Assembly (NCBI GenBank): GCA_039962225.1
Contig: JAMPKV010000002.1
Span: 310,001-374,000 of the forward strand
Origin: Microcoleus sp. AS-A8
Lineage (GTDB): Bacteria > Cyanobacteriota > Cyanobacteriia > Cyanobacteriales > Coleofasciculaceae
Direction of reading: 5' to 3'
Length of the DNA stretch: 64,000 bases
Under the pieces are notes generated by a model. The model made no database searches. It saw only the letters and a program-made list of their open reading frames with translations, and was not told the DNA's origin. Both the position numbers and the translations under genes were made by a program. This document shows positions 9,624 through 58,202 of the stretch, in pieces; position 1 is the stretch's first letter; each line of letters begins with the position of its first letter.

Positions 9624-9631
9624 GAAGATGG

Positions 9632-10606: not shown

Positions 10607-10702
10607 GAGGATTTTCTAGCGTTGACAGGCGACGCTGAGGTTTTAACTATATACCCTATACTAAATCCTTGTAAATCAACTCTTTTAGAGGAATTTCTAC
10701 CT

Positions 10703-12508: not shown

Positions 12509-12517
12509 TTGCTTTTA

Positions 12518-13207: not shown

Positions 13208-13213
13208 ATTGAC

Positions 13214-13786: not shown

Positions 13787-13822
13787 TTTAAAAAATTAGT
13801 CTTTGTTATGAAGAGATACTGT

Positions 13823-15205: not shown

Positions 15206-15291
15206 GATAATATTTGATTTAAATATTGGAATGTAAAAATAAAAATAAGCTAGTAAAACAATATTTTAAACATCACTTCTCAATATTGAGA

Positions 15292-16458: not shown

Positions 16459-16466
16459 AATTAGTG

Positions 16467-17852: not shown

Positions 17853-17936
17853 TCCACACCTTACTAACTGTTTGGCACTGTCCTGAAACTTTTCCGCTAG
17901 TGAGAATCTTCTTAAAACTAGAGTTATTCTCAGTTA

Positions 17937-22736: not shown

Positions 22737-22766
22737 TTTTAAAAATTTAAATTATATTAATTACAA

Positions 22767-29211: not shown

Positions 29212-30429
29212 ATGGATAAAGTTTGCGTAGTTGGTTTAGGTTATGTCGGCTTACCAACAGCTAGTTTGCTGGCTAATAAAGGCTTTAAGGTTCACGGAGT
29301 GGATGTTAACAGGCAGGTTGTACAAACCATCAATCGCGGAGCAATACATATTCATGAGCCGGATTTAGATGTCTTGGTCAAGTCCGCTGTAAACAGTGGA
29401 AATCTTACAGCCAGCTTGGAGCCAGCTCCTGCCCATGTGTTTATCCTAGCTGTGCCAACACCGTTTACGGATGGACATGTGCCCAATATATCTTATGTTG
29501 AAGCGGCTACACGAGCGATCGCTTCCTACCTGGAGCCCGGTAATCTGGTCATCCTGGAATCCACCAGTCCAGTGGGAACAACCGAAAAGATTAGCGTCTG
29601 GTTACAGGAACTCCGGCCCGACCTAGACCCTAACTCTATTTATATCGCTCACTGCCCAGAGCGGGTTTTACCGGGTCAAATCCTCAAAGAAATTATTACG
29701 AACGATCGCATTGTGGGTGGAATCGATCCAGCTTCAACGGCTAAGGCTGAGGAATTTTATCAGCAATTTGTCACAGGTGAGATTGTACCCACTCAAGCCC
29801 GCACCGCAGAATTATCCAAGCTGGCGGAAAATGCCTTCCGCGACGTTAACATTGCTTTTGCCAACGAACTGTCTCTAATTTGCGAACGGTTGAATATAGA
29901 TGTTTGGGAACTCAGAGAACTGGCGAACCGACATCCTCGCGTTAACATTCTCAAACCAGGCCCAGGAGTAGGTGGACATTGTATCGCCGTCGATCCCTGG
30001 TTTATCGTTGACTCGGCTCCAGAGCAAGCGCAGCTCATCCGTACCGCAAGGCAAGTCAATGACTCTAAACCCGATTTTGTCGTTAGTCAGGTTAAAGCCG
30101 CAGCTGCCGATGCCGAGCAAGCGGTCATTGCCTGTTTAGGGTTGGCTTACAAGGCGAATATTGATGACTTGCGTGAAAGTCCCTCCGTCGCCATTGTTAG
30201 AAAACTGGCAAGGGAGTCAGTCGGACACATTTTAGTGGTAGAACCTCATATTTCAGCCTTACCTGCTAGTCTCGATAGCTTGGGAAGTGTCCAACTTGTC
30301 GCACTTGATGTTGCACTGGATAAGGCAGATATCTTACTGCTCCTGGTTGACCACCAAGCTTTTAAGCAGGTAGACAGGCAAAAGCTCCAAGGAAAAACGG
30401 TGATTGATACGCGAGGAATTTGGCGGTGA
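29212..30429 (+). CDS. wecC: UDP-N-acetyl-D-mannosaminuronate dehydrogenase-like nucleotide-sugar dehydrogenase
   Basis: 405 residues of the UDP-glucose/GDP-mannose dehydrogenase family. The NAD site is G8-x-G10-x2-G13 in VVGLGYVGLPTAS. The central helix region has LSKLAENAFRDVNIAFANEL, and the catalytic cysteine is C257 in GPGVGGHCIAVDPWF; HCIAVDPWF is characteristic of the WecC branch. It oxidises C6 of a UDP-HexNAc to the uronic acid. The usual 2-epimerase partner WecB is absent here. The start is supported by AGGA at 29200-29203. The stop overlaps a GTG start of the next gene by 4 nt (GTGA), so it heads the plus-strand operon. The exact substrate epimer is inferred. Confidence 0.9.
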   Translation: MDKVCVVGLGYVGLPTASLLANKGFKVHGVDVNRQVVQTINRGAIHIHEPDLDVLVKSAVNSGNLTASLEPAPAHVFILAVPTPFTDGHVPNISYVEAATRAIASYLEPGNLVILESTSPVGTTEKISVWLQELRPDLDPNSIYIAHCPERVLPGQILKEIITNDRIVGGIDPASTAKAEEFYQQFVTGEIVPTQARTAELSKLAENAFRDVNIAFANELSLICERLNIDVWELRELANRHPRVNILKPGPGVGGHCIAVDPWFIVDSAPEQAQLIRTARQVNDSKPDFVVSQVKAAAADAEQAVIACLGLAYKANIDDLRESPSVAIVRKLARESVGHILVVEPHISALPASLDSLGSVQLVALDVALDKADILLLLVDHQAFKQVDRQKLQGKTVIDTRGIWR

Positions 30430-32576
30430 AGCAGGTACTGATTCGGCAGGGTCAGGCCGTGGTTGAAGAGATTCCTGCTCCTCAAGTCGAGCCTGGTACA
30501 GTTCTAGTTCAGGTCGATCATTCCTGCATTTCGATTGGCACGGAAATGAGCGGCATCAAAATGACAAGTCTGCCCTTATGGAAACGGGCACTCAAGCAGC
30601 CGGAAAATGTCAAAAAGGTTGTAGAAATGGCTGTGAGCCAAGGGGTATCCCGCACCGCTAGCGTCGTTCAAGGCAGACTGTCTAGTGGTCAGGCTACGGG
30701 TTACTCGGCTGCCGGTACGGTGTTGGAAGTGGGAGATGGGATTAATGACCTGCAACCAGGCGATCGCGTGGCTTGTGCTGGAGCGCAATGCGCTCATCAT
30801 GCGGAGATTATTCGGGTACCCCGTAATCTGACGGTGCCAATACCCGATCAATTAGACTTTGCGGCGGCAAGTACGGTGACACTGGGTGCGATCGCGCTTC
30901 AAGGTATCCGCCGTGCTCAACCCACGTTGGGTGAAACCTTTGTCGTACTTGGCCTAGGAATTTTGGGTCAGTTAACGGCTCAGATGCTCAAGGCGAATGG
31001 CTGTAAGGTGATTGGTACAGACCTGGATCGCCAACGGATTGCGATCGCCCAACAGTTGGGTATGGATATAGGCATCCACCCGGACGAGGGAAATAACATT
31101 GAACAGGTAATGCGGCTGACGGAGGGTTTGGGTGCTGATGGTGTGATCATCACAGCCGCCACCCCCTCAGATGAGGTCATCTCTACCGCGTTCCGGATGT
31201 GTCGCAAAAAAGGTCGAGTCGTTCTCGTCGGGGATGTAGGCTTAAATCTCAACCGTGCTGACTTTTACCAGAAGGAATTAGACTTCTTTATTTCTACGTC
31301 CTATGGCCCAGGGCGCTACGACAACCACTATGAAGAACAAGGGCTGGACTATCCAGTCGCCTATGTGCGCTGGACGGAAAACCGTAATATGGCAGAGTAC
31401 CTGCGTTTGGTAGCACAGAGCAAAGTTCAGGTAACTCCCCTGATTACTGCCACCTATCCTGTAGAACAAGCAACGCTAGCTTACGAGGCGCTCAAGGATG
31501 GAGAACAGCGACCCTTGATGGCATTACTCTCCTACCCACCGTCTCCGAGCAATGCTCCACTACAGCGCGTGGTTCCTAACCCCACGGCTCAACCAGCAGG
31601 CGCTGAGCAAATTCGGCTTGCTGTCGTCGGAGCAGGGGGTTTTGCCAAGGGTATGCATTTACCGAATTTACAGGCTCTATCCGCTTCCTACCACATACAA
31701 GCGATCATGAGCCGTACTGGTCACAACGCCACGGGGACGGCTCGGCAATTTAGTGCCAACTATGCCACCACGGACTATCAGAAGGTTCTCAGCGATCCGG
31801 AGGTCGATGCGGTACTGATTACGACGCGGCATCACTTGCACGCTTCTATGGTTGTAGAAGCACTGAAGGCGGGTAAGCATGTCTTGGTGGAAAAGCCCCT
31901 TGCCCTAACAGCCCAGGAACTGTCAGAAATTGCAGGGTTTTACTCAGCCCTCGCGGCTTCATCTGCTGCGCCGATCCTGTTAACAGGCTTCAATCGCCGC
32001 TTTTCTCCCCACGCTCGGCGGATTCATGAATTAATCCAGAACCGTAGCAACCCGCTGATTTTCAACTATCGGATGAATGCAGGTTACATTCCCTTAGACC
32101 ACTGGGTTCATACAGAAGAAGGCGGCGGTCGCAACCTGGGTGAAGCCTGCCACATCTATGACCTGTTTACCTACTTGACCAACAGTAAAGTAGTGGAGGT
32201 GAAAACCCAAGCGATAACTCCTACCACAGGCTATTACAGCCGTCGCGACAATTTTGTCGCGATGATGAACTTTGCAGATGGCTCTGTTGCAACGCTTACC
32301 TATACAGCTCTCGGTTCTAAGGATTATCGTAAGGAGCAACTCGAAGCCTTTGTAGATGGGAAGGTCTTGGTGTTAAACGACTACAAGCATCTAACCGTTA
32401 GTGGAACCAAAGCCAAAGGAGTAGAGACCAAGGTGGTAGATAAGGGACACAAAGCCCAGTTGGAAGCCTTCGCCCAGGCGATTCAACAGGGAAGTGACTG
32501 GCCCATTCCGCTCTGGCAGCAGGTGCAGGCAACTGAGATCGCGCTGCGGGTGGAAGCAGAGCTGGCTCAAGTTTAG
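30426..32576 (+). CDS. Fused zinc-type (MDR) dehydrogenase + Gfo/Idh/MocA oxidoreductase
   Basis: About 716 residues in two halves. Residues 1-370 are a medium-chain dehydrogenase: SIGTEMSG, GYSAAGTVLEVGDGI, GDRVACAGAQCAHHAEI, then the Rossmann segment VVLGLGILGQLTAQML. Residues 395-716 are Gfo/Idh/MocA: LAVVGAGGFAKGMHLPNL, then GKHVLVEKPLAL with the catalytic EKP lysine, GGGRNLGEACHIYDLF. This fused architecture is found in exopolysaccharide loci, usually together with heparinase II/III-family proteins, and probably acts on nucleotide-linked or glycan sugars. GTG 30426 overlaps wecC by 4 nt; a TTG at 30420 would add two residues. Substrate unknown. Confidence 0.88.
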   Translation: MKQVLIRQGQAVVEEIPAPQVEPGTVLVQVDHSCISIGTEMSGIKMTSLPLWKRALKQPENVKKVVEMAVSQGVSRTASVVQGRLSSGQATGYSAAGTVLEVGDGINDLQPGDRVACAGAQCAHHAEIIRVPRNLTVPIPDQLDFAAASTVTLGAIALQGIRRAQPTLGETFVVLGLGILGQLTAQMLKANGCKVIGTDLDRQRIAIAQQLGMDIGIHPDEGNNIEQVMRLTEGLGADGVIITAATPSDEVISTAFRMCRKKGRVVLVGDVGLNLNRADFYQKELDFFISTSYGPGRYDNHYEEQGLDYPVAYVRWTENRNMAEYLRLVAQSKVQVTPLITATYPVEQATLAYEALKDGEQRPLMALLSYPPSPSNAPLQRVVPNPTAQPAGAEQIRLAVVGAGGFAKGMHLPNLQALSASYHIQAIMSRTGHNATGTARQFSANYATTDYQKVLSDPEVDAVLITTRHHLHASMVVEALKAGKHVLVEKPLALTAQELSEIAGFYSALAASSAAPILLTGFNRRFSPHARRIHELIQNRSNPLIFNYRMNAGYIPLDHWVHTEEGGGRNLGEACHIYDLFTYLTNSKVVEVKTQAITPTTGYYSRRDNFVAMMNFADGSVATLTYTALGSKDYRKEQLEAFVDGKVLVLNDYKHLTVSGTKAKGVETKVVDKGHKAQLEAFAQAIQQGSDWPIPLWQQVQATEIALRVEAELAQV

Positions 32577-32997: not shown

Positions 32998-35634
32998 ATG
33001 CGCCAGATTCTACTAAACAGTAAAGGGGCTCTTGTGGTGCGTATGCCTAAACCAGCCGTGGAAGCTGGCTGTGTTTTGATCCGTGTGCACTATTCTTTTG
33101 TCAGTGTAGGAACCGAGATCGCTTCTTTACGTCCTACCCCGTCTATTGTGAGCCAAGGCGCTTCTGTGGAACAGGCCAAAGCCTATGCCAGTCTTGCCCG
33201 AACTTACCTGGGATTAGCTCTACGCCATCCCGATAAAGCGATTCGACGTGTGACTCAAATGGCGAGAGGGCAGATAGCTACTCTGCTGCCTGCAAGATCG
33301 AGCGTACCGACATTGACCCTGACCAGCGGTCAGCTGGATTGGACTCGTTGTGCCGCTACTGAGGTTGAGGTGCAGGACGGTCAGTTGAAGGTGGTGACCG
33401 ATGATTCAGACGCGGCTTATCAAGTCATGTCACAGGCGATTGAGGTGCCTGTCGGTCAAGTTCCCATTGTGCGGGTTAAGGGTCAGGTTCATGAAGGTGC
33501 GATCGCACTCGGCTGGTTGAATGAGAATCGGGACGCTTGGTTAGGCTCTCGTTCCTATGAGGTAGGACAATTTGAAGACTCCCTCATCTTCGATTTGCAA
33601 GGTTCACAAACCTTCACCCTAGTCCTGACAACAGCAGGAGCCGGTCAGGCATCGCGAGTCACCTTGGAAAGTTTGGAAGTCCTCATGGCTCCTCCCACAG
33701 AAAATGGACTGCCTCACAGCGAATTGGATGACCAAGGCTGGAACGTAGGCTATTCGGCTGTTGGTGAGGTGGTAGAAGTCGGAGAGGGAATTAGCGATTT
33801 AGTCGCGGGAGATCTAGTGGCCTGTGGAGGGGCCGGTCAAGCGAATCATGCCGATTACGTAAGCGTGCGCCGGAACTTGGTTTGCCGCATTCCTCAGGGA
33901 TGTCCAGAGAAGTTAGCCGCCTCTACCACAGTAGGCGCGATCGCATTACAAGGGGTACGCAGGGCAGCACCCCAGTTAGGGGAGAAAATCTGCGTTTTAG
34001 GGTTAGGTTTGATTGGTCAGATTATCGTGCAGCTCCTCCGTGCGAATGGCTGCACCGTCATTGCTTTAGATCTGGATCAACACAGAGTCGAGCGTGCCAA
34101 AAGCTTGGGCATGGAGGCAGGTACAGACAACCCGGAGACACTCAAACAGATCGTGCGGGATATAACAGGGGGCTACGGAGTAGACCGAACCTTAATCGCA
34201 GCAGCGACCAAATCCGATGCCGTGATTAACTTGGCGATGGAGGTAACCCGCGCCAAAGGAACGGTTGTGATTGTCGGGGATGTTGGCCTCAATGTACAAA
34301 GAACTCTGTTTTACCGCAAAGAAATAGACCTGCTGATGAGTACCTCCTATGGCCCAGGTCGATATGACCGGTCTTATGAGGAGGAGGGGCGGGATTATCC
34401 GTTTTCCTATGTCCGGTGGACTCTCAACCGGAACATGCAGGCTTATCTTGAATTAATTGCTTCGGGTCGCATCAATATAGAAGCCCTGATCGACAAAGTA
34501 GTTTCGATTGATGAAGCTCCTGCTGTCTATAAGACTCTGGCGACAGGTAAAGACAGTCTGCCTCTCGGAGTGCTGATTCAATACCCCGACGATACCCGAA
34601 ATTTACCGGAACCGCCTGAAGCGACATACATCACAATTCGGGGGCACAGAAAAGCACCAGGCGAGCTGATTAATTATGCCTTAGTGGGAGCAGGGGCATT
34701 TGGCACGAGTATGCTAGTTCCCCAAATGCAAAAACGCAAAGATCGGTTTTTCTTGCGAGGTGTAGTTAGCCGTGATACCACTCGTGGCGGGAACTTTGCC
34801 CGTGCTAACCAGGTCGAGCTATTCACCACAGAACTCGATCCCGTGTTGCAGAACCCAGCCTTTGATCTGGTTGTGATTAGCACCCGTCACTGCGAACATG
34901 CAGAACAGGTAAGCCAAAGCCTAAAAGCAGGGAAACATGTATTTGTCGAGAAACCGTTAGCGTTGAGCTGGGAAGAACTGGATTTGGTGGTCAAAACCTA
35001 CGAGAGTTTGGAGCAACGACCCCTTGTGATGGTTGGCTTCAATCGGCGTTTTTCTCCAGCCTTGCAGGCGCTCAAACAAGCTTTGCAAGAAAGGCGATCT
35101 CCCCTAATCGTCAATTACCGACTCAACGGCGGCTACATTCCCCTAGATAGTTGGATTCAGACCCAACAGGGTGGCGGACGCAATCTGGGAGAAGCCTGTC
35201 ATATGTATGATGTGTTTCGATTCCTGGCAGATGCACCGGTCACTTCAATCAGTGCCACTTCTATAGACCCCGCTGCGTTACCGTACCAGCGCAATGACAA
35301 CTTCTGCGCCACACTCGCCTACCAAGACGGGAGTGTAGGCAATCTAGTCTATACGGCTTTAGGGCCAAAACAGGGGTTGCCAAAAGAGCGGATTGAGGTG
35401 TACTGTGACGGCGAAGTCTATATCGTCGATGACTATAAAAGTCTGAGCAGAGCCAGTGATAGTACAGTCCTATGGCAAAGTAACGAGGTGGATAAAGGTC
35501 ATTTTGAAGAGTTGAGTCGGTTCGGAGATGCCATTGCGAGTGGCACAGAAGCACCGATTCCATTTGAGCAAATTGTCGAAACGACAGCGGTGGCCTTACA
35601 CGTTGAAGACTTAATTTATCCGCGTGAATCTTGA
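32998..35634 (+). CDS. Fused MDR dehydrogenase + Gfo/Idh/MocA oxidoreductase with an inserted beta-sandwich domain
   Basis: 878 residues. The layout matches the fused enzyme two genes upstream: SVGTEIASLRP at about 36-46, GYSAVGEVVEVGEGI near 251, AVGAIALQGVRR, Rossmann VLGLGLIGQIIVQLL, then the Gfo/Idh/MocA half with ALVGAGAFGTSML, GKHVFVEKPLALS and GGGRNLGEACHMYDVF. It is about 160 residues longer because residues 105-232 are an inserted beta-rich domain (YQVMSQAIEVPVGQVPIVRV, GAIALGWLNENRDAWLG) that interrupts the N-terminal catalytic domain. Similar modules end two other proteins of this locus. Substrate unknown. The start ATG at 32998 has no clear ribosome-binding site. Confidence 0.88.
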   Translation: MRQILLNSKGALVVRMPKPAVEAGCVLIRVHYSFVSVGTEIASLRPTPSIVSQGASVEQAKAYASLARTYLGLALRHPDKAIRRVTQMARGQIATLLPARSSVPTLTLTSGQLDWTRCAATEVEVQDGQLKVVTDDSDAAYQVMSQAIEVPVGQVPIVRVKGQVHEGAIALGWLNENRDAWLGSRSYEVGQFEDSLIFDLQGSQTFTLVLTTAGAGQASRVTLESLEVLMAPPTENGLPHSELDDQGWNVGYSAVGEVVEVGEGISDLVAGDLVACGGAGQANHADYVSVRRNLVCRIPQGCPEKLAASTTVGAIALQGVRRAAPQLGEKICVLGLGLIGQIIVQLLRANGCTVIALDLDQHRVERAKSLGMEAGTDNPETLKQIVRDITGGYGVDRTLIAAATKSDAVINLAMEVTRAKGTVVIVGDVGLNVQRTLFYRKEIDLLMSTSYGPGRYDRSYEEEGRDYPFSYVRWTLNRNMQAYLELIASGRINIEALIDKVVSIDEAPAVYKTLATGKDSLPLGVLIQYPDDTRNLPEPPEATYITIRGHRKAPGELINYALVGAGAFGTSMLVPQMQKRKDRFFLRGVVSRDTTRGGNFARANQVELFTTELDPVLQNPAFDLVVISTRHCEHAEQVSQSLKAGKHVFVEKPLALSWEELDLVVKTYESLEQRPLVMVGFNRRFSPALQALKQALQERRSPLIVNYRLNGGYIPLDSWIQTQQGGGRNLGEACHMYDVFRFLADAPVTSISATSIDPAALPYQRNDNFCATLAYQDGSVGNLVYTALGPKQGLPKERIEVYCDGEVYIVDDYKSLSRASDSTVLWQSNEVDKGHFEELSRFGDAIASGTEAPIPFEQIVETTAVALHVEDLIYPRES

Positions 35635-35649
35635 CAAAAAAAACAAGAT

Positions 35650-38340
35650 ATGCAGAAATACCTCTATCTGGCTCCACCTGTTGAAGGTTGGCTTGTAGGC
35701 GTTTTTGGCGATGACCGCCTGATTCAGTTCACCGAACGCCACAAAATACAATTAGACTTGCCCTCCCTGCAAGGGATTACCGACCCATTTCAAGAGCTGG
35801 AACGTCATGAGAACATTGAAGGCGTTGTGATTGGCTTACAGCGGGGCTGGTTGGGATGGACACATCTGAGGTTAGCCCAAAAGGCTTTAAGGCTGAATCG
35901 GCGGGTGTGGTTGTACTGGCCAAAAGAAGACGCGATCGAACGTGTCGATGAAGAACGCCTACAGAGTCATTGGCGGCATTTATTTGCGATTCAAGGTTAC
36001 AAAGCTCTGCGTCCTCTGCAAGCTGTTTCAAATTCAAAATCGGCGTTGCGCGAACATTATCGGCTGGCACGCAGCATGTATCGTGGGCAGTCTTACACGT
36101 ACTTGGGTCGCCAAGCTGATGAAAAAACAGCAAGTGTAGCGAACATCCTCGCTGAACTTGAAGAGGCGGTAAGAAGCGCTGAACCCATTCCTGTGACTCA
36201 CCTCGATCGCCAACCGGATGCCGAACATCCGCTCACAGGGTGTGGAGTGTATTTACGCACAGACTTCTGGGTACGGATCGATTCAGGCGGTAGCTATGGT
36301 CACACCTGCCATGTAGCCAAGGAACTCGCCAAAGTCACCGAGAAGCTGGTGTGCTTCATGCCCCATCAGTATTCGCTACTAGATGATTTTGGTCTCTCTC
36401 AAGTGGTTCTCGCTCCTGCGGGTGAGGATGGCAGCGAAGGAACGATTTTACAGAGTACCAAGCACTATTACCAACTTTTAAAACCAGCGATCGAAAGCTT
36501 GCGTCCGCTTTATATCTACGAGAGGTTGTGCTTGGGGAATTATGCAGGCGTCCTCTTGAGTCAAAAGCTGAAGATACCCTACATCGTTGAGTACAACGGC
36601 TCAGAAATCTCCATGAAGCGGAGTTTTGATGGTAGTGGGTATCAATATGAGGATATTTATCTGAAAGCAGAAGAAGCGGCGTTTCGACAAGCTACTTTGA
36701 TTTCTGTTGTATCAGAAGCGGTTAAAGAGGATTTGGTCGCACGCGGGGTCGAGCCATCCAAAATTTTAATTAACCCCAATGGCGCTGATATCCAGGCTTA
36801 TGCTCCTTTACCTCCTGACAAAAAAAGCACCTTGCGCCAGGAATTGGGCTTCGACGACTCCCATCGGGTTATTGGATTTATCGGCACCTTCGGTGGTTGG
36901 CACGGAATTGACGTACTAGCGGCGGCGATTCCTAAAATTTGTCAGCAACTGCCCGAATGTCGCTTTCTCCTCATTGGTGATGGCAACTACAAGCATTTAG
37001 TGGACCAACAGATTGCCAAGCATCAACTTTCTCAACAAGTATTAAGTGTTGGTCGCGTTCCCCAGAAAGAAGGTGCTCGTCTCCTAACGGCTTGTGATAT
37101 TTACGTTGCCCCTCACAACAGCCATATGGTCGATCGCCGCTTCTTCGGTTCTCCAACCAAGCTCTTTGAGTATATGGCTCTAGGGGGCGGTATTGTGGCT
37201 AGCGACTTAGAACAGCTTGGCCAGGTTCTTTCCCCCGCTATGCGTCCTGGAAACCTGGGCAACCCAGATCTAACGGTGAGCAACCAACGTGCTGTGCTGT
37301 GTACCCCTGGCGATATCGAAGAATTTGTCAGTGCTGTTGTGGAATTAGCCAAACGACCTGAATTGTGCCAAATTCTGGGTCAGAATGCACGTCAAGCGGT
37401 CGTTGAGCATTATGCCTGGAACCATCATGTCGCCAAACTTTGGCGTTTTCTCAGAGGAGAAATCACCTCAGAGGGGTTTACCGTTGATTCGCCAAACAAC
37501 AATATCGAGCCACTCGATTTACAAAAGCTCGATACTGGCGATGCCTATAAAAATGAAACGCAATCCCAGTGGAACAATAATCCTTGTGGTTCACAATATG
37601 TCAAACAGGCACAGCGTCATACCCTAGATTGGTTCTTGGAAGTAGAAGCATACCGCTATGGTGAATACGCGCCTTGGATGGCAGAGACGATGGAATTTGC
37701 CAAACATAGCGGCAAAAAACTTCTAGAGATTGGCGCTGGAATCGGTACCGATCTGTGCCAATTTGCTCTCAACGGTGCTGATGTTACTGATGTTGACCTT
37801 TCGGCTGGACACTTGGAACTGGCTAAAGAAAACTTTAGATTGCGGGGTTTGACAGGTAACTTTATTCACCAGGATGCGGAAGATTTACCGTTTGATAACA
37901 ACAGTTTTGATGTTGTCTACAGCAATGGGGTGATTCACCATACCCCTAATACAATCCAACTGGTGAAGGAAATTTACCGCGTACTTAAACCCGGTGGAAA
38001 AGTCATTATTATGGTCTACGCTGAGAACTCATTACACTACTGGCGTAGTCTGGTTGGTAACCTTGGACTCATGAAAGGTGAGCTGCTGGATGTCTCAATG
38101 GGTGAAATAATGTCGCGTCACGTTGAGATTTCTGAAAATAATGCTAAACCTCTGGTTAAGGTCTATACCAAAAAAAGACTGAAAAATATGTTCAGAGAAT
38201 TTGTCAATATCGAGATTGTGCAACGACAAATTACAGCACCGGAATTACCAAGCTCACTACGCTGGATACCGTTGGACTTGGTTGGCAAACTGGTAGGCTG
38301 GAACCTGGTAATCAAAGCGAATAAACCGGAGAAGGCGTAA
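35650..38340 (+). CDS. GT4 glycosyltransferase fused to a SAM methyltransferase
   Basis: 896 residues. An N-terminal region (1-190) is related to no family I can name. The GT4 unit runs from about 200 (SGGSYGHTCHVAKELAK) through IGFIGTFGGWHGIDVLA to FFGSPTKLFEYMALGGG near 500 and ends around 600. The methyltransferase starts near 645 with NNPCGSQYVKQ, motif I LLEIGAGIGTDLCQFA near 690, FDVVYSNGVIHHTPNT and VIKANKPEK at the end. The separate genes at 61273 (GT4) and 62972 or 60287 (methyltransferases) match the two halves, so this is a fused version of a split pair. It is 15 nt downstream of the oxidoreductase gene and abuts the heparinase-family gene. Confidence 0.92.
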   Translation: MQKYLYLAPPVEGWLVGVFGDDRLIQFTERHKIQLDLPSLQGITDPFQELERHENIEGVVIGLQRGWLGWTHLRLAQKALRLNRRVWLYWPKEDAIERVDEERLQSHWRHLFAIQGYKALRPLQAVSNSKSALREHYRLARSMYRGQSYTYLGRQADEKTASVANILAELEEAVRSAEPIPVTHLDRQPDAEHPLTGCGVYLRTDFWVRIDSGGSYGHTCHVAKELAKVTEKLVCFMPHQYSLLDDFGLSQVVLAPAGEDGSEGTILQSTKHYYQLLKPAIESLRPLYIYERLCLGNYAGVLLSQKLKIPYIVEYNGSEISMKRSFDGSGYQYEDIYLKAEEAAFRQATLISVVSEAVKEDLVARGVEPSKILINPNGADIQAYAPLPPDKKSTLRQELGFDDSHRVIGFIGTFGGWHGIDVLAAAIPKICQQLPECRFLLIGDGNYKHLVDQQIAKHQLSQQVLSVGRVPQKEGARLLTACDIYVAPHNSHMVDRRFFGSPTKLFEYMALGGGIVASDLEQLGQVLSPAMRPGNLGNPDLTVSNQRAVLCTPGDIEEFVSAVVELAKRPELCQILGQNARQAVVEHYAWNHHVAKLWRFLRGEITSEGFTVDSPNNNIEPLDLQKLDTGDAYKNETQSQWNNNPCGSQYVKQAQRHTLDWFLEVEAYRYGEYAPWMAETMEFAKHSGKKLLEIGAGIGTDLCQFALNGADVTDVDLSAGHLELAKENFRLRGLTGNFIHQDAEDLPFDNNSFDVVYSNGVIHHTPNTIQLVKEIYRVLKPGGKVIIMVYAENSLHYWRSLVGNLGLMKGELLDVSMGEIMSRHVEISENNAKPLVKVYTKKRLKNMFREFVNIEIVQRQITAPELPSSLRWIPLDLVGKLVGWNLVIKANKPEKA

Positions 38341-40416
38341 ATGGTTGTCCGGCTGCCTAATTGGTTAAGGCGTTTAGCCAAACGCGCACCCCAGCAAAAG
38401 GCGAAAGAGCTATCTTTGCCAGATTTGACTTCCGATTTAGCTAGCGCTGGACTGTCCTTCGATCGCTGGTATGCGAGTCTGCAAGGGTTAGGGAGTTTGT
38501 ATGCGGAGTTGTCGGCAGAAACGATAGACCATTTGCGATCGCTGTGCGGCGATCGCATCTCCACTACCATTACCGCAGCCAATCAGATACTTGCCCATCA
38601 GTTCGACTTACTCGGCAGCGGCAAATATACACCCATCGAGCCAGAGCGTGCGATTAGTTCTCAGGGTTATCGTCCCATTGATTGGTATTTAGACCCGGTG
38701 TCTAAACTCCGCTTTCCTCAGGGAATTCCTCATAAAGAATGGAATTTATTCCAGATGCGCCCTAGTCAGGAAGCGGACATCAAGCTTCCCTGGGAACTAG
38801 CCCGGTGCCAGCATTGGGTAACTTTGGGGCAAGCTTATCGGCTAACCAACGATGACCGCTATGCCTGGGAAATTGCCCATCAGTTGCATGACTTTAGGGA
38901 AGCCAATCCAGTGGGTATGGGTATTCACTGGACTTGTACGATGGATGTTGCGCTTCGAGCCTTGAACTGGGCACTCGCTTTTTCCTTAATCGGTCAGTAC
39001 CAAGGATTGCCAGCAGACTTTTGGCGGCAGGCTTATGAAGCTCTATTTGAGCATGGGGTATTTATCTACGGGAACCTGGAAAATAACTACGAGGTAACCA
39101 GCAATCACTTCTTGAGCAATGTAGTTGGTTTATACTACCTAGCCAGTGTCTTCCGGGACTTGCCTCAAGGTCGTATTTGGAACCAATTCTGCCGAGAATC
39201 TCTCGAACAAGAAATCCAGGTTCAGGTACTTGATGATGGGGCAGATTATGAGTCATCTGTCCCCTATCACCGTTTGGTAACAGAATTGTTTCTCGGTGCT
39301 GCCCGACTTGCTGAGTTTCGGGGTGAACCTCTATCCGAGGCTTATTGCGATCGCCTCTACAAAATGGTTGACTTCCTCGTGGGGGTGATGCGTCCCGATG
39401 GCTTGATGCCCCAAATTGGCGATGCTGATGATGGACGATTGCATATTTTCACCGACTACGGAACCTGGCAACCCCAAGATGCACGCCATCTTTTGGCTCC
39501 GGCTGCCTTCTTGCTGAATGAACCCGCTTGGCTGCAACAGGCTGGAGTGACTGGCTGTTGGGAAGCCGCTTGGTGGGGCTTCGATATTGGACAACTTTCT
39601 CCAAAAGATCAGCCTCCACCCGAATTATTCAAACTGTTTCCACAAGCAGGATTGGCTGTGATGCGGGAGGGCGGACATTATCTGTTGGTGAGTAACGGCG
39701 TGGTGGGCACCAAAGGGTTTGGCAACCACAAGCACAACGATCAGCTGAGTTTTGAATATCATGCTGATGGCATCCCACTGTTGGTTGACCCCGGCAGTTA
39801 CGTTTATACGTCAGACTTCGCTGCCAGAAACCTCTTCCGGAGTACTGGCTATCACAATACCTTGTGTATTGATGAGGAAGAACAAAATGAGATGCGCCCA
39901 GAATGGATATTTCGCCTGTTTGAAACAGCTCGTGCAGAAACCTTAGACTTTCGAGTTACCGAGCAGTATGGGGAATACTGGGGCAAACATATTGGGTATC
40001 AGCGCTTAAGCCATCCTGTAACTCACGAACGTCGCTTTCGACTGGAAAAAGAATCAGGAGCCTTATTTATCCTCGACAGACTCAACGGAACGGGCAAGCA
40101 TCAGTTAGTCTGGCATTTTCATTGCGCTCCTGGGGTGGAAGTGACACAAGTGGAAAGGGGAATCTATCAGCTGTCTGCTGGAAATGGGCGTTTTTATTTG
40201 CGTACTCCAGAAACCCTAGAGGGAACAATCCGCGATGCCTGGTATTCTCCATCTTATGGCGTGCGGTTACCGTGCCGAGCAATTGACTTAAGCCTAAATA
40301 CGGAACTGGAACCTGTAGAATCCTGGTTTTTTGCAATGGCTGGTGAAGCGTGTTTTACACAACCCCAATGGGCAGCCCAATTAACATCCATTTTGCAGTC
40401 AATGGCTCTGGGATAA
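38341..40416 (+). CDS. Heparinase II/III family protein
   Basis: 691 residues. The N-terminal half (about 60-400) is an all-alpha toroid with LPWELARCQHWVTLGQAYRL, HWTCTMDVALRALNWA and the conserved NNYEVTSNHFLSN (Asn/His). The C-terminal half is beta-rich with GNHKHNDQLSFEYHADG, DPGSYVYTSDFAARN and RSTGYHNTLCIDE, the family's heparinase II/III signature. The family includes heparin, alginate and other polyuronate lyases. No signal peptide is present; the start ATG follows the previous stop directly. A cytoplasmic protein in a biosynthetic operon argues against simple degradation. A paralog is at 58225. Confidence 0.9.
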   Translation: MVVRLPNWLRRLAKRAPQQKAKELSLPDLTSDLASAGLSFDRWYASLQGLGSLYAELSAETIDHLRSLCGDRISTTITAANQILAHQFDLLGSGKYTPIEPERAISSQGYRPIDWYLDPVSKLRFPQGIPHKEWNLFQMRPSQEADIKLPWELARCQHWVTLGQAYRLTNDDRYAWEIAHQLHDFREANPVGMGIHWTCTMDVALRALNWALAFSLIGQYQGLPADFWRQAYEALFEHGVFIYGNLENNYEVTSNHFLSNVVGLYYLASVFRDLPQGRIWNQFCRESLEQEIQVQVLDDGADYESSVPYHRLVTELFLGAARLAEFRGEPLSEAYCDRLYKMVDFLVGVMRPDGLMPQIGDADDGRLHIFTDYGTWQPQDARHLLAPAAFLLNEPAWLQQAGVTGCWEAAWWGFDIGQLSPKDQPPPELFKLFPQAGLAVMREGGHYLLVSNGVVGTKGFGNHKHNDQLSFEYHADGIPLLVDPGSYVYTSDFAARNLFRSTGYHNTLCIDEEEQNEMRPEWIFRLFETARAETLDFRVTEQYGEYWGKHIGYQRLSHPVTHERRFRLEKESGALFILDRLNGTGKHQLVWHFHCAPGVEVTQVERGIYQLSAGNGRFYLRTPETLEGTIRDAWYSPSYGVRLPCRAIDLSLNTELEPVESWFFAMAGEACFTQPQWAAQLTSILQSMALG

Positions 40417-40429
40417 CAGAAATAATTTT

Positions 40430-41251
40430 ATGCGCTCTCTATTGACTACAATTGCTGGTTCTACATTAGATGCAAGCCGCACAATCCTGCGCTACCGGAA
40501 AATTATCTGGGCTACCACCAGAGTGGAACTTGCCAAACGCTACTCCGGCTCAGCACTTGGATTAGCGTGGGTCTTTTTACATCCGGCTTTATTACTGTCT
40601 ATCTATATATTCGTATATGTCGTAATTTTTAAAGTTCGGTTTCCGGGCTATGGTCAATCCTATTATGTCCTCTATATATTCAGTGGTTTAATTCCTTATT
40701 TAGGCTTTTGGGATGCTATTTCTGGCGGTTCCTTATGCATTAAACAGAATATTCATTTAGTTAAAAATGTCATGCTACCTATTGAGCTGATACCCGTAAG
40801 GGCAGTGGCAGTTGGTATGGTGACACAGGTAGTAAGTACGGGCATTTTGATTTTATTGGTAGGATTCAAAGGTTCCTTAACGTTTCATTTAATTTGGCTA
40901 CCCTTGGTTTTTCTATTACAGGTCATGTTCCTAGTCGGTCTTGTTTGGATACTGGCTGCCTTGGCAGTGGTATTGCCAGATATTTCTTATTTTATAAATT
41001 TGTTTTTGCTGCTTTTAATGTATATATCTCCTATCGGATTTACTCCCGACATGATTCCATCTCATTTAAAATTAATGATATATTTAAACCCAATCTATTA
41101 CATGCTTGAGATGTATCGAGATAGTATACTAAAAGGGCAGTTGCCAGCGATAGATACGCTGGCAATTTATGTGATTATGTGTACAGGATTTTTTGCTCTG
41201 GGTGCAGCATTTTTTAAACGATTCAAAAGTATGCTAGTGGATTATGAATAA
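40430..41251 (+). CDS. wzm: Polysaccharide ABC exporter permease, Wzm/TagG type
   Basis: 273 residues of the ABC-2 membrane family. The N-terminal amphipathic region has TTRVELAKRYSGSALGLAW, the family-typical entrance to the first membrane helix. About six hydrophobic segments follow, and the end reads FFALGAAFFKRFKSMLVDYE. The loop SPIGFTPDMIP and the LNPIYYMLEMYRDSIL motif are typical of O-antigen and teichoic-acid exporters. It moves the completed, lipid-linked glycan across the inner membrane. It overlaps the following wzt by 8 nt, so the two are co-translated, and it is the only such permease in the window. Confidence 0.95.
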   Translation: MRSLLTTIAGSTLDASRTILRYRKIIWATTRVELAKRYSGSALGLAWVFLHPALLLSIYIFVYVVIFKVRFPGYGQSYYVLYIFSGLIPYLGFWDAISGGSLCIKQNIHLVKNVMLPIELIPVRAVAVGMVTQVVSTGILILLVGFKGSLTFHLIWLPLVFLLQVMFLVGLVWILAALAVVLPDISYFINLFLLLLMYISPIGFTPDMIPSHLKLMIYLNPIYYMLEMYRDSILKGQLPAIDTLAIYVIMCTGFFALGAAFFKRFKSMLVDYE

Positions 41252-43061
41252 TGTCATTATCCAGGCTAGGGAGTTGACGAAGGTTTACCGTCTTTACAGC
41301 AAGCCTCAGTACCGCTTCTTGGATATGTTCGGACTACTGGGTAAAAAACGCGGGGCTTTTACGGAACATGCGGCGCTAGACGGGGTCAATCTGGATATCC
41401 GGCGCGGTGAAAAGGTGGCTGTCATAGGGCGCAATGGTGCTGGGAAAAGTACGTTTTTGAAGCTGGTAACCCAGGTCACGCAACCCACTTCAGGTCAGAT
41501 TAAGGTAAGAGGCAAGGTACACGCTCTACTGCAAATTGGGACGGGTTTTCACCCAGATTTTACAGGTCGGGAGAATGTTTACGCTTACTTGGCTCAACTG
41601 GGCGTGACGGGTAGAGAGGCTGACCGCAAGTGTGCTGAGATTATTGAATTTGCTGAATTGGAAGAATATATCGATCAGCCGGTGAAAACCTACTCCACGG
41701 GGATGGGTGCTCGGTTGATGTTTTCCACTTCAACGGCAATTACTCCCAATTTGCTGGTACTTGATGAGGTGCTAGGGGTAGGCGATGCTTATTTTACTCA
41801 GAAAAGTTATGAGCGAATTCGGGAGTTATGCGAAGGGGAAGGGACTACACTGCTATTGGTAACCCATGATATTTACTCAGCCTCAAAAATTTGCGATCGC
41901 GTAATTTGGATTGACCGAGGGCGCGTCTTGATGGATGGCAATGCTCCAACTGTCATCAAGGCTTATGAGGACTCGATCCGGGCGCAAGAAGAACAGCGTT
42001 TGCGCTTGCGTAAACAGGCAAAGTTGCAAGAACTCAAAGCCAATCATCAAAGTCGTGCACTTGATTATATCTTGCTGGAAATACGCAGCCGGGACAACAA
42101 GCCACAGCCCTGTCCTGTCTATTTCAGCGAAATATCTCTCTATAATCAGGGTGTGCCAATTGCCAGCCTGCCTCTGGGCGTCAATGGCTTCGATAATGAA
42201 GACAACTCGCATTTACAGCAGGAAGGTACATCCTGGGGCGACACTGTTTTCTGGGAAGGGCGTCAATCCCGCCCCATGCTTAATTACGGTTCCCCGTTTC
42301 ACAAAGTTGCAGGCGTGTTTGTGACTCCGGGACTATTCACAGATGCCGACAAAACACAGATCGACTTATTGATGGAATATTGGTCGGACGAGCCTTGTGA
42401 CCTTGTCCTGCGTGCTTTCATCAAAGGACGTGAGATAGACTTGGGGCCGCTTCCGCCGACAAAGGGACAATGGATTAAACATAGTGTTCAGTGCTTATAT
42501 GAGGGAAAGCAAGGCGAACACAGGAATTTAGAGCCTTTGTCGGAAATCAATACTAGTGGAGTTTATGGTTCTGGCGTTATTGTTGTGCAGAATGTAAAGA
42601 CTGTTGATGATTGCGGCAAAGATACTCATTTTTTGTCACATGGCAAAGGAATGAGCTTTTTAATCGAATATCAAATTGTGAAGCCAACCTTTAATGAAAG
42701 AGCTCAAGTAATCATTGTTCTGCATAAAGATGGTGTACAAGATGTGTGCCGCTTTATTACACGGGATTTACTTTTTGATGCAACAAAAAATAATAAAGGA
42801 ATAATACGCTTAAATATCCCCAGACTTATGCTAGGTGCTGGCACCTATTCTGTAACCATTATGGTAGTCAAAGAAAAATATTTTGACCAGGAACAAACAA
42901 TATTTTTTTCTATTAATCCGAGTGTTTATGCAGTCATTTCAAAAGTTATTGATATCCAAGTTACTGATGGAGGTTTATTGGGTTCAGGTACTATATTCGT
43001 AGGTCATGGCGAGTGGTCTATGGACTTTAATCACGAATTATTATCACCCTACAATTCCTAA
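41244..43061 (+). CDS. wzt: Polysaccharide ABC exporter ATPase, Wzt type, with enlarged C-terminus
   Basis: 605 residues. The ATPase (1-245) has Walker A GRNGAGKST near 62-70, QIGTGFHPDFTGREN, signature YSTGM and Walker B LLVLDEVLG. A basic coil (RLRLRKQAKLQEL) leads to a first beta-rich domain (about 275-430: YFSEISLYNQGVPIASL, LLMEYWSDEPCDLVLRAF) and a second, Wzt_C-like domain (about 440-600: FLIEYQIVKPTFNERAQVII, LGAGTYSVTIMVVKEKYF). Most Wzt proteins have one C-terminal domain of about 150 residues, so this is longer than usual. The C-terminal domain normally recognises the glycan end. The 3' part becomes AT-rich, like the next gene. Confidence 0.93.
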   Translation: MNNVIIQARELTKVYRLYSKPQYRFLDMFGLLGKKRGAFTEHAALDGVNLDIRRGEKVAVIGRNGAGKSTFLKLVTQVTQPTSGQIKVRGKVHALLQIGTGFHPDFTGRENVYAYLAQLGVTGREADRKCAEIIEFAELEEYIDQPVKTYSTGMGARLMFSTSTAITPNLLVLDEVLGVGDAYFTQKSYERIRELCEGEGTTLLLVTHDIYSASKICDRVIWIDRGRVLMDGNAPTVIKAYEDSIRAQEEQRLRLRKQAKLQELKANHQSRALDYILLEIRSRDNKPQPCPVYFSEISLYNQGVPIASLPLGVNGFDNEDNSHLQQEGTSWGDTVFWEGRQSRPMLNYGSPFHKVAGVFVTPGLFTDADKTQIDLLMEYWSDEPCDLVLRAFIKGREIDLGPLPPTKGQWIKHSVQCLYEGKQGEHRNLEPLSEINTSGVYGSGVIVVQNVKTVDDCGKDTHFLSHGKGMSFLIEYQIVKPTFNERAQVIIVLHKDGVQDVCRFITRDLLFDATKNNKGIIRLNIPRLMLGAGTYSVTIMVVKEKYFDQEQTIFFSINPSVYAVISKVIDIQVTDGGLLGSGTIFVGHGEWSMDFNHELLSPYNS

Positions 43062-49728: not shown

Positions 49729-51549
49729 TCATCGAGCATAAAGGTTGAGTTTTCTAACAACAAAACGGGATTGCCTATCTTCTGATCGCGAATTCAGCAA
49801 CACTAAGGTGACACTTTGTAGATTTTTTAAGGGTACATCCCAAGAGTCAACATAGTCACCAGGCTTGCTTAAAGTCTTCACATCGATAAATCTGCTTCCA
49901 TCGGGCAAAAGTAGCCCCAAAGCCATCCCGCCATCATCTACTCGAACGTCATATTCAACATGCATGACGGAGAAGTTGGAAACAGGAATAGGAGCCATGA
50001 GTTGATAATGGCTCCGACCTGGGCTTGTTGTCACGCGTAGCAGGCTATCTGATTCAGCCTTGAAGGAAACATCAGGTAACGCCTTCGTCCAGTGGAGGTT
50101 TTTTAATGTTGTAATGGGCTTTGTTCGTCCCTCTGCAACCGCTAGACGTATTTCGTTTCCCACTAACACCTTTGTACTCTCCTCATTCAACGCCAGCAGA
50201 TTTATGCTTGCATAGTTGCCGATAACAATTAATGCAAATACTGCTAGTCCCAGTGCAACTACTCTTTTTTTCAATATTGGTGAGAGTGATACGAATTCAC
50301 TGTATAGGAGATTAATCAGAATTGCAGCGGCAAAAATGTAACTAAGAGGTACGTACCTGATATAACGGGATTCATAGTAAACAAGACCCAAGCTACCCAT
50401 TGCGTAAATTAAAGGAATTGAAATGATGTAAGCAGTAGAAAAATTTTTTTTTAAAATAAGCACTATTATAGATAGACAAAATATCCAAAAACCGTATTGA
50501 GTACAGTAATTATTAATCAAATTAAAATAGTCAGGTATACCAAGGTATGATTGATGATCGAATACAATTTTTGAAAATCGCCAGATAATAGTAGTCAAAA
50601 CATACAAAGGATGTTCGCGCCATGCATTTTGGTAAGCGGCTCTCCAGTACTTTTCTGATGCCGCTGAGTGCCACTCGATACCTTGTTGCATAAGTAGTTT
50701 AGCTGCTTTGTCATCATTGACAAAATAGCCGTAATCATTGGGTAACTGTCCAAGTCCACACCAAAGAGCATAGTTTCCTGCATTAGAGGTAAAGATCCAA
50801 TGTCCATTATTAATTTTGTGATAAGCTCCCCAGAAAAACATGAGGGTGCAAAATCCAATAATAATCATTGTCACTGCATGAATTCTTCGCTCAGCAGGAG
50901 CAGTGAATACAGCCCAGAGCAAGAGTGGACAGATAAAGAGAACCAAATCAGGACGAATTAAAGCCGACACAGCTACCAAAAAGCCAGTTACCAGCCAGAG
51001 AAGCATCTTATCGCGACGGCTAACAAAGACTATTAAGGCAATCAACCATGCCATAAGTGGAGGGGAGAGAGCTTCGGCAAGCAGCATAATGCTGCCAAAA
51101 GTCCACAAAGGTGCGACAGTGTAAACACCAGCAGCGAACAGCGAAATTATGGGTCGAACGCCCAGCCGAATTAAAACATAAAAAATAGGAAAAACGGTCA
51201 AGCAATCAATAGCCGCTTGAACTAGGCGAATCGTCTGAAGGTTATTAATTCCAAAAAATTGCCAGATTGCAATAAATAAAGAATAACCTGGAGGATAGAA
51301 GGTGATAGACCAAGGTCGGAGATGTAATATATCGTCAGCACCCTGCACATATTTAATTGTTATGCCACCGAAATAATGAGCTAAGGACCAATCGATATAA
51401 GATTCCGAAAGACCTCCATTGAGCAGAAAGAACTGATACCGAACCCAAAATCCCAGAGGTAAAAAAGCTAAGAGAATCAGTAGCGTTAAACTAGGAAATC
51501 CGAAGACTTTCCATCGTTCAAGTGGCAACAGAAATTCAATTTTTTTCAT
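49729..51549 (-). CDS. GT-C-like membrane glycosyltransferase with C-terminal beta-sandwich module
   Basis: 606 residues. Residues 1-460 contain a dozen or so hydrophobic segments; the first periplasmic loop has acidic and aromatic residues, and FYPPGYSLFIAIW resembles the glycan-binding loop of PMT/ArnT-like (GT39/GT83) enzymes. The C-terminal 125 residues (from about 482) are soluble: RSHYQLMAPIPVSNFSVMHV, DDGGMALGLLLPDG, RFVVRKLNL. This tail resembles the insert in the 32998 oxidoreductase and the tail of the 57081 protein. It is convergent with the asnB gene at 47711 and is the last gene of the 54.2-49.7 kb minus-strand run. Donor would be a polyprenyl-phosphate sugar. Confidence 0.85.
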   Translation of the reverse strand: MKKIEFLLPLERWKVFGFPSLTLLILLAFLPLGFWVRYQFFLLNGGLSESYIDWSLAHYFGGITIKYVQGADDILHLRPWSITFYPPGYSLFIAIWQFFGINNLQTIRLVQAAIDCLTVFPIFYVLIRLGVRPIISLFAAGVYTVAPLWTFGSIMLLAEALSPPLMAWLIALIVFVSRRDKMLLWLVTGFLVAVSALIRPDLVLFICPLLLWAVFTAPAERRIHAVTMIIIGFCTLMFFWGAYHKINNGHWIFTSNAGNYALWCGLGQLPNDYGYFVNDDKAAKLLMQQGIEWHSAASEKYWRAAYQNAWREHPLYVLTTIIWRFSKIVFDHQSYLGIPDYFNLINNYCTQYGFWIFCLSIIVLILKKNFSTAYIISIPLIYAMGSLGLVYYESRYIRYVPLSYIFAAAILINLLYSEFVSLSPILKKRVVALGLAVFALIVIGNYASINLLALNEESTKVLVGNEIRLAVAEGRTKPITTLKNLHWTKALPDVSFKAESDSLLRVTTSPGRSHYQLMAPIPVSNFSVMHVEYDVRVDDGGMALGLLLPDGSRFIDVKTLSKPGDYVDSWDVPLKNLQSVTLVLLNSRSEDRQSRFVVRKLNLYAR

Positions 51550-57080: not shown

Positions 57081-58202
57081 ATGAAGCAGGCAAAGACAGA
57101 CTGGGAGGGTGCCATTATCCTCCGAGACCACGTCTACTCACGGAATAAAATATTTCTCCCGATCGCAGAAGTACCTGTTCCATTAACGGTTGAAAAGTAC
57201 AAAGCGATCGTTTCCGGTCAATCTCCTCAGATATGTACAGGAATGTCCTTAGCTTACATTGGTTTGCTTCAGGCGTTTGATATTCCAGCACGTTTAGTTA
57301 GCCTTGCCAATAACGAAGCCGTTAACCGCACCCAGTCTCCAAAAAATTCTGCGGCAAAAATTCCAGACACGCATTCGACCGTTGAGGTATTTTTAGACAA
57401 GCGCTGGGTATTGCAAGACCCATCCTTTAACACTCAATGGGAATTGGATGGTAAACCACTGGGGGCTTTGGAGTTACGTCAGGCTTACTTATCCAAGAAA
57501 AACCCAATTTCTACAACTAACGGTCGCCCAGTTTTGCCCCGTCGTTCGCTTCAAGAGTTTTACATTCCCTACCAAGATGTACTGGCTTATGTGGAGATTA
57601 GTGAAATTGAGATATTAAATCCCAAAAATGCCGGTAGCTTTAAAGTTGTTGTGACAATGCCACCCGGCCCGACATGGCGTCATGCCGTCCAATCATCACC
57701 CTTAGCACCCTCTTTAAACAATGAGAAAGAAACTAGAGTGCGTGATTGGGATTTGAGCGAGCATTTACCGATGGGTTGGGAGACTTTACCCAATGCGAAG
57801 GTATGGAATAATTCCCAGGAAAAGGGCATTGGGGTAAAAACAGATGCATCCAATAGTGGTTACCAACTCTGGTCAGTCCCCGAATCTTTACCGGGGGGTG
57901 ACTACCAAGTTAGAGTAAAAGGTGACGTACTCGATGGCGGCTTGTATATTGGTGTATTGGATACAACAACCCAGCAGTTTATTAGTACAGCTTACTACTG
58001 GTCAGGCCAGCGCAATTGCCCAAGGAATGCCGACAAAGACGATTGCTTTAAAAAATCAGATATGATGGCTAAGTTCAGCCTCAAGGAAACAAAGCCAATA
58101 AAAATTATTTTGGCAAATTGGTCGTATGAAATGCAGTCTTCTACCTGGAACGTGAAGAACGTTGCGATCGCCAAAAATCAAACTGTTAGTTCAAAGCCAT
58201 GA
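57081..58202 (+). CDS. Transglutaminase-like protein with C-terminal beta-sandwich module; 5' end may be broken
   Basis: 373 residues from the first ATG. The transglutaminase-like core shows LRDHVYSR, catalytic Cys52 in QICTGMSLAYIGLL, His98 in DTHSTVEVF and Asp113 in VLQDPSF, the C-H-D triad of this fold. The N-terminal helices normally found before the LRD-VYSR element are missing, and the open frame upstream (from 56982) reads sensibly (SLANLATNAEAYYTQS, RAAVLETVPE). The gene is therefore probably a 5'-interrupted copy of a longer, secreted protein. From about 233 to the end is a beta-rich module (YQLWSVPESLPGGDYQVRV, LDGGLYIGVLD) like those in 32998 and 49729. Bacterial members act as peptidases or cross-linkers; role here unknown. 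Confidence 0.75.
   Translation: MKQAKTDWEGAIILRDHVYSRNKIFLPIAEVPVPLTVEKYKAIVSGQSPQICTGMSLAYIGLLQAFDIPARLVSLANNEAVNRTQSPKNSAAKIPDTHSTVEVFLDKRWVLQDPSFNTQWELDGKPLGALELRQAYLSKKNPISTTNGRPVLPRRSLQEFYIPYQDVLAYVEISEIEILNPKNAGSFKVVVTMPPGPTWRHAVQSSPLAPSLNNEKETRVRDWDLSEHLPMGWETLPNAKVWNNSQEKGIGVKTDASNSGYQLWSVPESLPGGDYQVRVKGDVLDGGLYIGVLDTTTQQFISTAYYWSGQRNCPRNADKDDCFKKSDMMAKFSLKETKPIKIILANWSYEMQSSTWNVKNVAIAKNQTVSSKP

Follow-up and report, generated by a model that had tools for sequence, protein, structure and literature searches.

How the enzymes that tailor a glycan are targeted to the right polymer, when several polymers are made in one cytosol, is in our view a largely unanswered question. The best-known recognition step is the checking of chain ends by the carbohydrate-binding domain of a transporter (excerpts of PMC9445017 and PMC11231755). 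The question is raised here by a glycan locus of the cyanobacterium Microcoleus sp. AS-A8, analyzed in a window of 64,000 nucleotides (positions 310,001 to 374,000, forward strand, of contig JAMPKV010000002.1, assembly GCA_039962225.1), where a bi-domain oxidoreductase, a GT-C protein and a transglutaminase-like protein contain similar segments (copies A, B and C, respectively; together, the module). We propose that the module is a carbohydrate-binding module (CBM)-like domain that binds a feature of one glycan exported by an ATP-binding cassette (ABC) transporter and holds the tailoring enzymes of that glycan on it, a reading to which we give a probability of about 0.6.

One domain family in three enzymes

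The first-pass annotation, made by eye, had described the three segments as a mobile beta-sandwich module shared by enzymes of different fold. Profile comparison without the window rows bears this out, with positions as described and edges slightly shifted: copy A comprises residues ~100-235 of open reading frame (ORF) 32998-35634, copy B the last ~120 residues of ORF 49729-51549 and copy C the C-terminal ~130 residues of ORF 57081-58202. The motif columns recognized at that time are also real: the alignment of the three rows has invariant columns for W, the YQ pair, P, V, G, G and L, and the family signature reads W...YQ...G...G-x-L...W-L-G. In addition, an alignment agreed with the earlier remark that the other bi-domain oxidoreductase of the locus, placed at 30426 (ORF 30420-32576), lacks the insert.

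Pairwise BLOSUM62 local scores were 82 for A-B, 82 for A-C and 48 for B-C, with shuffle means of 26-28 (standard deviation 4.3-4.5); the score was reached by 0, 0 and 1 of 1000 shuffles, respectively. Because one shuffle in 1000 reaches the score of 48, the B-C link is weak without the wider family. That family supplies the link. A profile of 39 non-window rows detected A, B and C at E-values of 8.5e-42, 3.2e-18 and 4.5e-14, the next-best of the 227 six-frame window ORFs having 0.29. With 16 rows from non-oxidoreductase hosts the values were 3.5e-18, 4.3e-14 and 5.9e-13 (next ORF 0.35), and with 23 oxidoreductase rows they were 2.6e-47, 1.7e-11 and 5.3e-11 (next ORF 0.18). It should be noted that the rows had been collected by an iteration starting from the window segments, which were omitted from these profiles, yet the discovery of the family is not independent of them. 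As controls, the 5094 ORFs described below were searched once reversed and once shuffled, with a best E-value of 0.33. This profile evidence shows homology of the MDR (medium-chain dehydrogenase/reductase) insert with the tails of the GT-C and transglutaminase-like proteins.

A search of the genome for further copies, which the first-pass annotation had suggested together with the profile comparison, revealed no fourth one: a 42-row profile found exactly three copies at E≤10 in 7,749,038 bases, all on one contig and within 25 kb. A single-sequence match in this genome (C30, E 0.088) was dropped, since the 42-row profile did not recover it at E≤10. Matches of the first three-row profile in three relatives, G019 (E 0.0046), G046 (0.046) and G009 (0.094), were regarded as chance; with the iterated profile L013, the locus of G046, scored 0.26, and L012 and L014 were absent from the list at E≤10. 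Plasmid and phage collections, searched with copy A alone, contained no match at E≤1e-3.

Within the copy A host, the Pfam ADH_N match (below the curated cut-off) starts downstream of the insert and only at position 34 of the 104-position profile, which places the insert between the opening strands of the MDR catalytic domain on one side and the GYSxxGEV segment on the other. By MDR anatomy, this site presumably falls close to the catalytic cleft, between the positions of the two classic zinc-site motifs; at the place of the classic cysteine motif this protein reads SVGTE. In five aligned proteins without the insert, 9-17 residues replace ~140 columns around it.

Hosts, distribution and history of the module

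To characterize the family more widely, we scanned genome contigs with the oxidoreductase and obtained 32 related loci (L033 and L042 are adjacent pieces of one contig); host tallies rest on these oxidoreductase-selected loci, and copies elsewhere may be under-counted. An iterated profile search of the 5094 ORFs of the window and L011-L046 identified 52 domains at E≤1e-11 (one duplicate contig excluded). A further repeat, inside a multi-copy protein, was weaker (E 0.051), and the next-ranked protein had 0.26. The bi-domain oxidoreductase carries the module in 26 of the 32 loci, in L043 as a longer form. Altogether, nine Pfam-assigned host families were found in eight phyla, which supports the claimed mobility, and these hosts belong to enzyme families common in glycan loci. 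The module is thus an accessory fusion to carbohydrate-active or glycan-tailoring enzymes, their glycan substrates being deduced from the loci.

In radical SAM/SPASM hosts the module mostly lies between the two domains, with three strong copies in L030 and L035, and the radical SAM protein of L045 has it at the C-terminus. Three radical SAM/SPASM proteins (L027:3780-7502, L030:18913-21657 and L035:18415-21162) have at least three modules, at least two of them between the domains. GT4 glycosyltransferases bear it N-terminally, and methyltransferases, a sulfotransferase and a PMT_2 protein complete the Pfam hosts of the loci. Searching the whole genomes brought in an AlgX-like protein bearing two copies at its C-terminus, additional methyltransferases, a fusion of a nucleotidyltransferase with a methyltransferase, an MBOAT protein (module E 1.4e-8), an FkbM methyltransferase with a weak module match (1.4e-4), a second module-bearing oxidoreductase of the same type (L090) and PMT_2 hosts above (L092) or below (L088, L091, L096) the curated cut-off. 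In the genome behind L015 (Symploca sp. SIO2C1), a further copy forms the tail of a PMT_2 protein, as in the window, and the orthologous oxidoreductase of G003, a genome belonging to the same family as that of the window, bears the insert. Two hosts (L085:6835 and L094:2193) were assigned to radical SAM/SPASM by cysteine motifs alone. Ten distinct scanned hosts had no Pfam match at E≤0.01, and a simple scan found at least nine hydrophobic segments in nine of them. Four proteins without a Pfam match, L042:16632-18659 (minus), L081:7923-11183 (minus), L084:38-2431 and L080:15632-17545 (minus), have 9-11 such segments, and the module sits near their C-terminus.

The module clusters strongly in these loci. 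Among the 31 whole genomes behind them, 28 gave matches at E≤0.001 (74 in all). The 26 genomes with an insert-bearing oxidoreductase had 45 further matches (copies, not proteins; G439 and G449, with one match each and no such oxidoreductase, were left out of this count), of which 37 were on the oxidoreductase contig, all within 100 kb, and eight on other contigs. We also examined genomes drawn evenly within four phyla, with sample sizes of 386, 297, 398 and 297 (1378 in total; G003 was not in the draw), at cut-offs of 1e-6, 1e-6, 1e-5 and 1e-5. The module occurred in 1, 2, 1 and 1 genomes, respectively; all five were already known for an insert-bearing oxidoreductase, and four were the sample centers. 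These searches scored the best 11-15 first-look candidates per genome, so that weak copies may escape; they recovered every copy that passed the cut-off in the whole-genome searches.

Identity comparisons suggested that the copies are old. Median identity was 20.9% between modules of the same genome (19 pairs), 20.5% between modules that differ in both host and genome (544 pairs) and 31.6% between oxidoreductase inserts from separate genomes (276 pairs). Since copies of one genome are no more alike than copies of other hosts in other genomes, the window copies appear to be old and to have been maintained separately. A recent duplication within the locus as the origin of the three, which was also considered, was not supported by this comparison. 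In a 42-module tree, in which 13 of the 39 inner branches were open and some branches were long, the modules of one genome (L027, L030) fell in separate parts, and copy B joined a planctomycete methyltransferase tail and a Xanthobacteraceae sulfotransferase tail (98/97).

Predicted fold and possible ligand

Structure prediction, also suggested by the first-pass annotation, gave a confident beta sandwich of nine strands for copy B (AlphaFold2; predicted local distance difference test, pLDDT, 94.5; predicted template modeling score 0.87), and for copy A the support comes from strand lists. In the model of the full 878-residue oxidoreductase (mean pLDDT 85.4; blocks of residues 111-230 at 85-91), strands of the insert were predicted at residues 105-109, 115-117, 122-126, 129-133, 141-145, 155-166, 169-174, 181-187, 190-196, 205-211 and 220-231; the last nine correspond in order and similar length to the nine of copy B, as compared by reading and without superposition. 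The module is therefore modeled as a beta-sandwich/jelly-roll domain of ~115 residues, within the ~110-150 residues of that fold class, and such a fold is compatible with sugar binding without proving it.

The first Foldseek match of the copy B model was a porphyran CBM (8xmz, E 1.3e-5; VIA Z 12.2, rmsd 2.6, 123 aligned). Other CBM matches were CBM29 (VIA Z 12.2), CBM86 (Z 12.1), CBM4, CBM22 and CBM16; the CBM matches reach VIA Z 11-12, with sequence identities of 6-11% in the VIA alignments. When the A3 profile was compared with PDB sequences, the sole match at E≤10 was this porphyran CBM, with a non-significant value of 0.69. Pfam offered no significant family for the module (best E 0.011 in one row; 42 of 53 sequences scanned). 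In a fold search with the whole oxidoreductase model, the 50 matches listed were all MDR, Gfo/Idh/MocA and synthase chains and were not informative on the insert.

We infer that the ligand of the module is the glycan of the locus and that the module raises effective substrate concentration or specificity; a common ligand of this kind agrees both with the CBM-like fold and with the way the module clusters in loci of this type. In this model, the module, fused inside the MDR catalytic domain, between radical SAM and SPASM or at either terminus, would most likely bind a sugar feature of the lipid-linked chain, during its growth or after its completion. The host enzymes probably build and decorate the glycan, and the shared handle would keep them on their polymeric substrate and off other glycans of the cell. 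A wider form of the proposal, which we hold tentatively and at slightly less than even odds, is a locus-wide glycan address tag: one CBM-like family, on otherwise unrelated enzymes probably on both sides of the membrane, would recognize one polymer and thereby define which of them act on it, and would travel with this glycan locus from phylum to phylum and be reshuffled along with it. By family analogy, the AlgX-like host of another genome is probably periplasmic and would be the best case for an extracytoplasmic host. The occurrence of the module on this protein and on enzymes cytosolic by family mildly favors a ligand that is present on both sides, such as the glycan. The hydropathy scan that we used is coarse: it also predicts segments for soluble proteins, and in the AlgX-like protein it places one within the module region.

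Several observations weigh against glycan binding as the role of the module. The top two VIA rows for copy B were Vip3 insecticidal-protein domains (Z 12.4 and 12.3), and Cry domains and the protein-binding, ligand-binding domains of ephrin receptors reached ~11; we read the toxin-domain neighbors as a sign simply that the fold is common, and for this reason the fold alone is no proof of sugar binding. In four genomes every further copy was on another contig than the oxidoreductase. Related oxidoreductases of L034, L039 and L045 lack the module, so it is dispensable in some lineages; L034 nests within insert-bearing Acidobacteria (99/98), which points to loss of the insert there, and L039 and L045 are too poorly resolved. 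The GT-C and transglutaminase-like proteins had no BLASTP counterpart covering half of the query in the 32 loci. Finally, the GT-C protein showed 12 hydropathy segments with very tight spacing, and its topology is ambiguous; a literal 12-segment reading with a cytosolic N-terminus would put the tail in the cytosol, opposite to the precedent of the GT-C family.

The main alternative, which we consider unlikely, is protein docking, in which the jelly-rolls bind each other or a scaffold such as the exporter or the GT4-methyltransferase and make no sugar contact. An assembly tag would be just as locus-restricted and common to many enzymes, the ephrin-receptor domains fit the fold nearly as well as CBMs do, and the multiple copies of radical SAM proteins could multiply contacts. 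On the other hand, many of the best fold matches are CBMs, no complementary partner domain was recognized in the window (no dedicated search was made), and one partner would be needed on both sides of the membrane if the AlgX-like host is outside the cytosol, as is probable, and the radical SAM, GT4 and methyltransferase hosts are cytosolic, as their families suggest. It is more doubtful still that the module binds a small shared ligand, such as the head group of a lipid carrier or a nucleotide sugar. This would account for its presence on polymer-modifying and other enzymes alike, and a UDP-glucose dehydrogenase family gene is found in the locus; however, carriers and nucleotide sugars are general to glycan loci and the module was seen only with this locus type in the samples, and sulfotransferase and AlgX-type enzymes use no nucleotide sugar, which by family knowledge applies to such hosts here. 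Convergence of generic beta-sandwich tails that are not one family is very improbable: the weak alignment of B and C by themselves would agree with it, but the profile of either host group, without window rows, detects all three copies at whole-ORF E≤5.3e-11 with the next ORF at ≥0.18, and the reversed and shuffled controls were empty.

For the preferred reading, that of a CBM-like domain on biosynthetic enzymes, several known systems provide comparisons. CBMs mostly serve secreted polysaccharide-degrading enzymes. The module resembles those of degradative enzymes (8xmz, CBM29, CBM86, CBM4, CBM22) in fold, size and add-on architecture, and differs in that its hosts look biosynthetic. The galactofuranosyltransferase GlfT2 was among the best Foldseek matches (9dtp, 9nj1 and 4fix; E 1.3e-5 to 3.2e-5, TMq 0.55-0.59), absent from the 50 VIA matches listed and from the PDB-sequence profile search at E≤10. 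We take the matched part to be the N-terminal beta-sandwich of this polymerizing, cytosolic enzyme; unlike the module, the jelly-roll-like domain of GlfT2 belongs to a single enzyme.

The C-terminal jelly-roll carbohydrate-binding domain of Wzt, of the O-antigen ABC transporter, recognizes the capped end of the chain (excerpts of PMC9445017). As far as these excerpts describe it, the module is similar in being a jelly-roll on cytosolic components of an ABC-dependent glycan pathway, and Wzt_C is also present in the window locus; the difference is that Wzt_C sits on the transporter and the module on many enzymes. A direct relation was considered and rejected, as the two Wzt_C regions of the window, compared by hhalign with the 42-row profile of the module, gave probabilities of 0.4% and 2.0%. 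The 12 families that Pfam listed at E≤1 for the module rows do not include Wzt_C (PF14524), and no Pfam-scanned module host is an ABC ATPase (nine host ORFs were outside the scan). In Klebsiella pneumoniae O7, the chain terminator ORF6-O7 has a predicted CBM-like domain of immunoglobulin-like fold (excerpts of PMC11231755). By the descriptions in these excerpts, both cases involve a CBM-like domain on a tailoring enzyme of an ABC-dependent pathway, with one enzyme there and one family in many enzymes here. A related pairing of a bi-domain dehydrogenase with a heparinase-type gene is reported for the Pseudomonas aeruginosa zbdP-hepP operon, in which an MDR and Gfo/Idh/MocA protein is paired with a heparinase-type protein; the Rossmann domain of ZbdP begins at residue 402 and its last domain ends at 714 (excerpts of PMC5732420). 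These reported domain positions suggest that ZbdP is as short as the insert-less paralog.

The matches listed by full-text literature searches included no description of the module domain; subscription journals were beyond their scope, so that its absence from the literature is unproven. Compared with the precedents above, a CBM of a transporter and one chain terminator, what differs is a single family spread over many enzymes, without a significant Pfam match and in at least eight phyla. A domain common to the enzymes of one locus type would provide a testable answer to the targeting question, a sequence marker for the locus type and a handle for glycan engineering. If the address-tag proposal is true, the module would parallel, on the biosynthetic side, the CBMs that polysaccharide-degrading systems share.

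Neighboring genes and other observations

The positions of the module copies, their hosts and the adjacent genes are shown in Table 1. BLASTP matches in the 32 related loci required E≤1e-10 and coverage of half of the query; flanks were at most 10 kb, several of them ended by a contig edge, and paralogs within one locus can answer several queries. Under these conditions an asparagine-synthase-like protein was matched in 22 of the 32 loci, and several window methyltransferases in none.

Table 1. Module copies, host proteins and neighboring genes in the 64,000-nucleotide window
Feature	Position	Strand	Basis or remark
Paralogous bi-domain oxidoreductase without insert	30420..32576	+	Pfam, alignment
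Host of copy A: bi-domain oxidoreductase (ADH_zinc_N + GFO_IDH_MocA), 878 aa	32998..35634	+	Pfam
Copy A, module insert in MDR half of oxidoreductase	33310..33693	+	profile core 33325-33681
GT4 + methyltransferase fusion	35650..38340	+	BLASTP match in 23/32 related loci
Heparinase II/III-type protein	38341..40416	+	BLASTP match in 26/32 related loci
Export pair: ABC-2 membrane protein + ABC ATPase with Wzt_C	40430..43061	+	BLASTP match in 22/32 and 14/32 related loci
Host of copy B: PMT_2-type GT-C protein, 606 aa	49729..51549	-	Pfam
Copy B, C-terminal tail of GT-C (PMT_2) protein	49732..50139	-	profile core 49741-50106
Host of copy C: Transglut_core protein, 373 aa from first ATG	57081..58202	+	Pfam
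Copy C, C-terminal tail of transglutaminase-like protein	57765..58169 (profile core)	+	profile

The frame of the transglutaminase-like protein extends upstream, past a TAA (56979-56981), into a stretch that by reading is signal-peptide-like (region 56862-57081), and the gene may be interrupted or start internally. In the ABC ATPase (41244-43061), the ATPase domain is separated from Wzt_C by a long stretch that no Pfam family matches; a 193-residue part of this stretch showed no relation to the module by hhalign.

The window also contains a UDP-glucose dehydrogenase family gene (29212), two heparinase-type proteins, many methyltransferases and three asparagine-synthase-like proteins, one assigned by Pfam (45429) and two by reading (47711 and 54414). 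A second glycan-type cluster at 7372-24047 (minus) has its own Wzt_C ATPase (22767-24047). It includes a methyltransferase (17937-19145) with a match, below the curated cut-off, to an NBR1-type Ig-like domain (E 1.4e-4) and a 601-residue protein (10703-12508, minus) without a Pfam match at E≤0.001. Finally, a 730-residue methyltransferase at 43151-45343 has a coiled-coil-like tail with repeated NLQAEV-like units.

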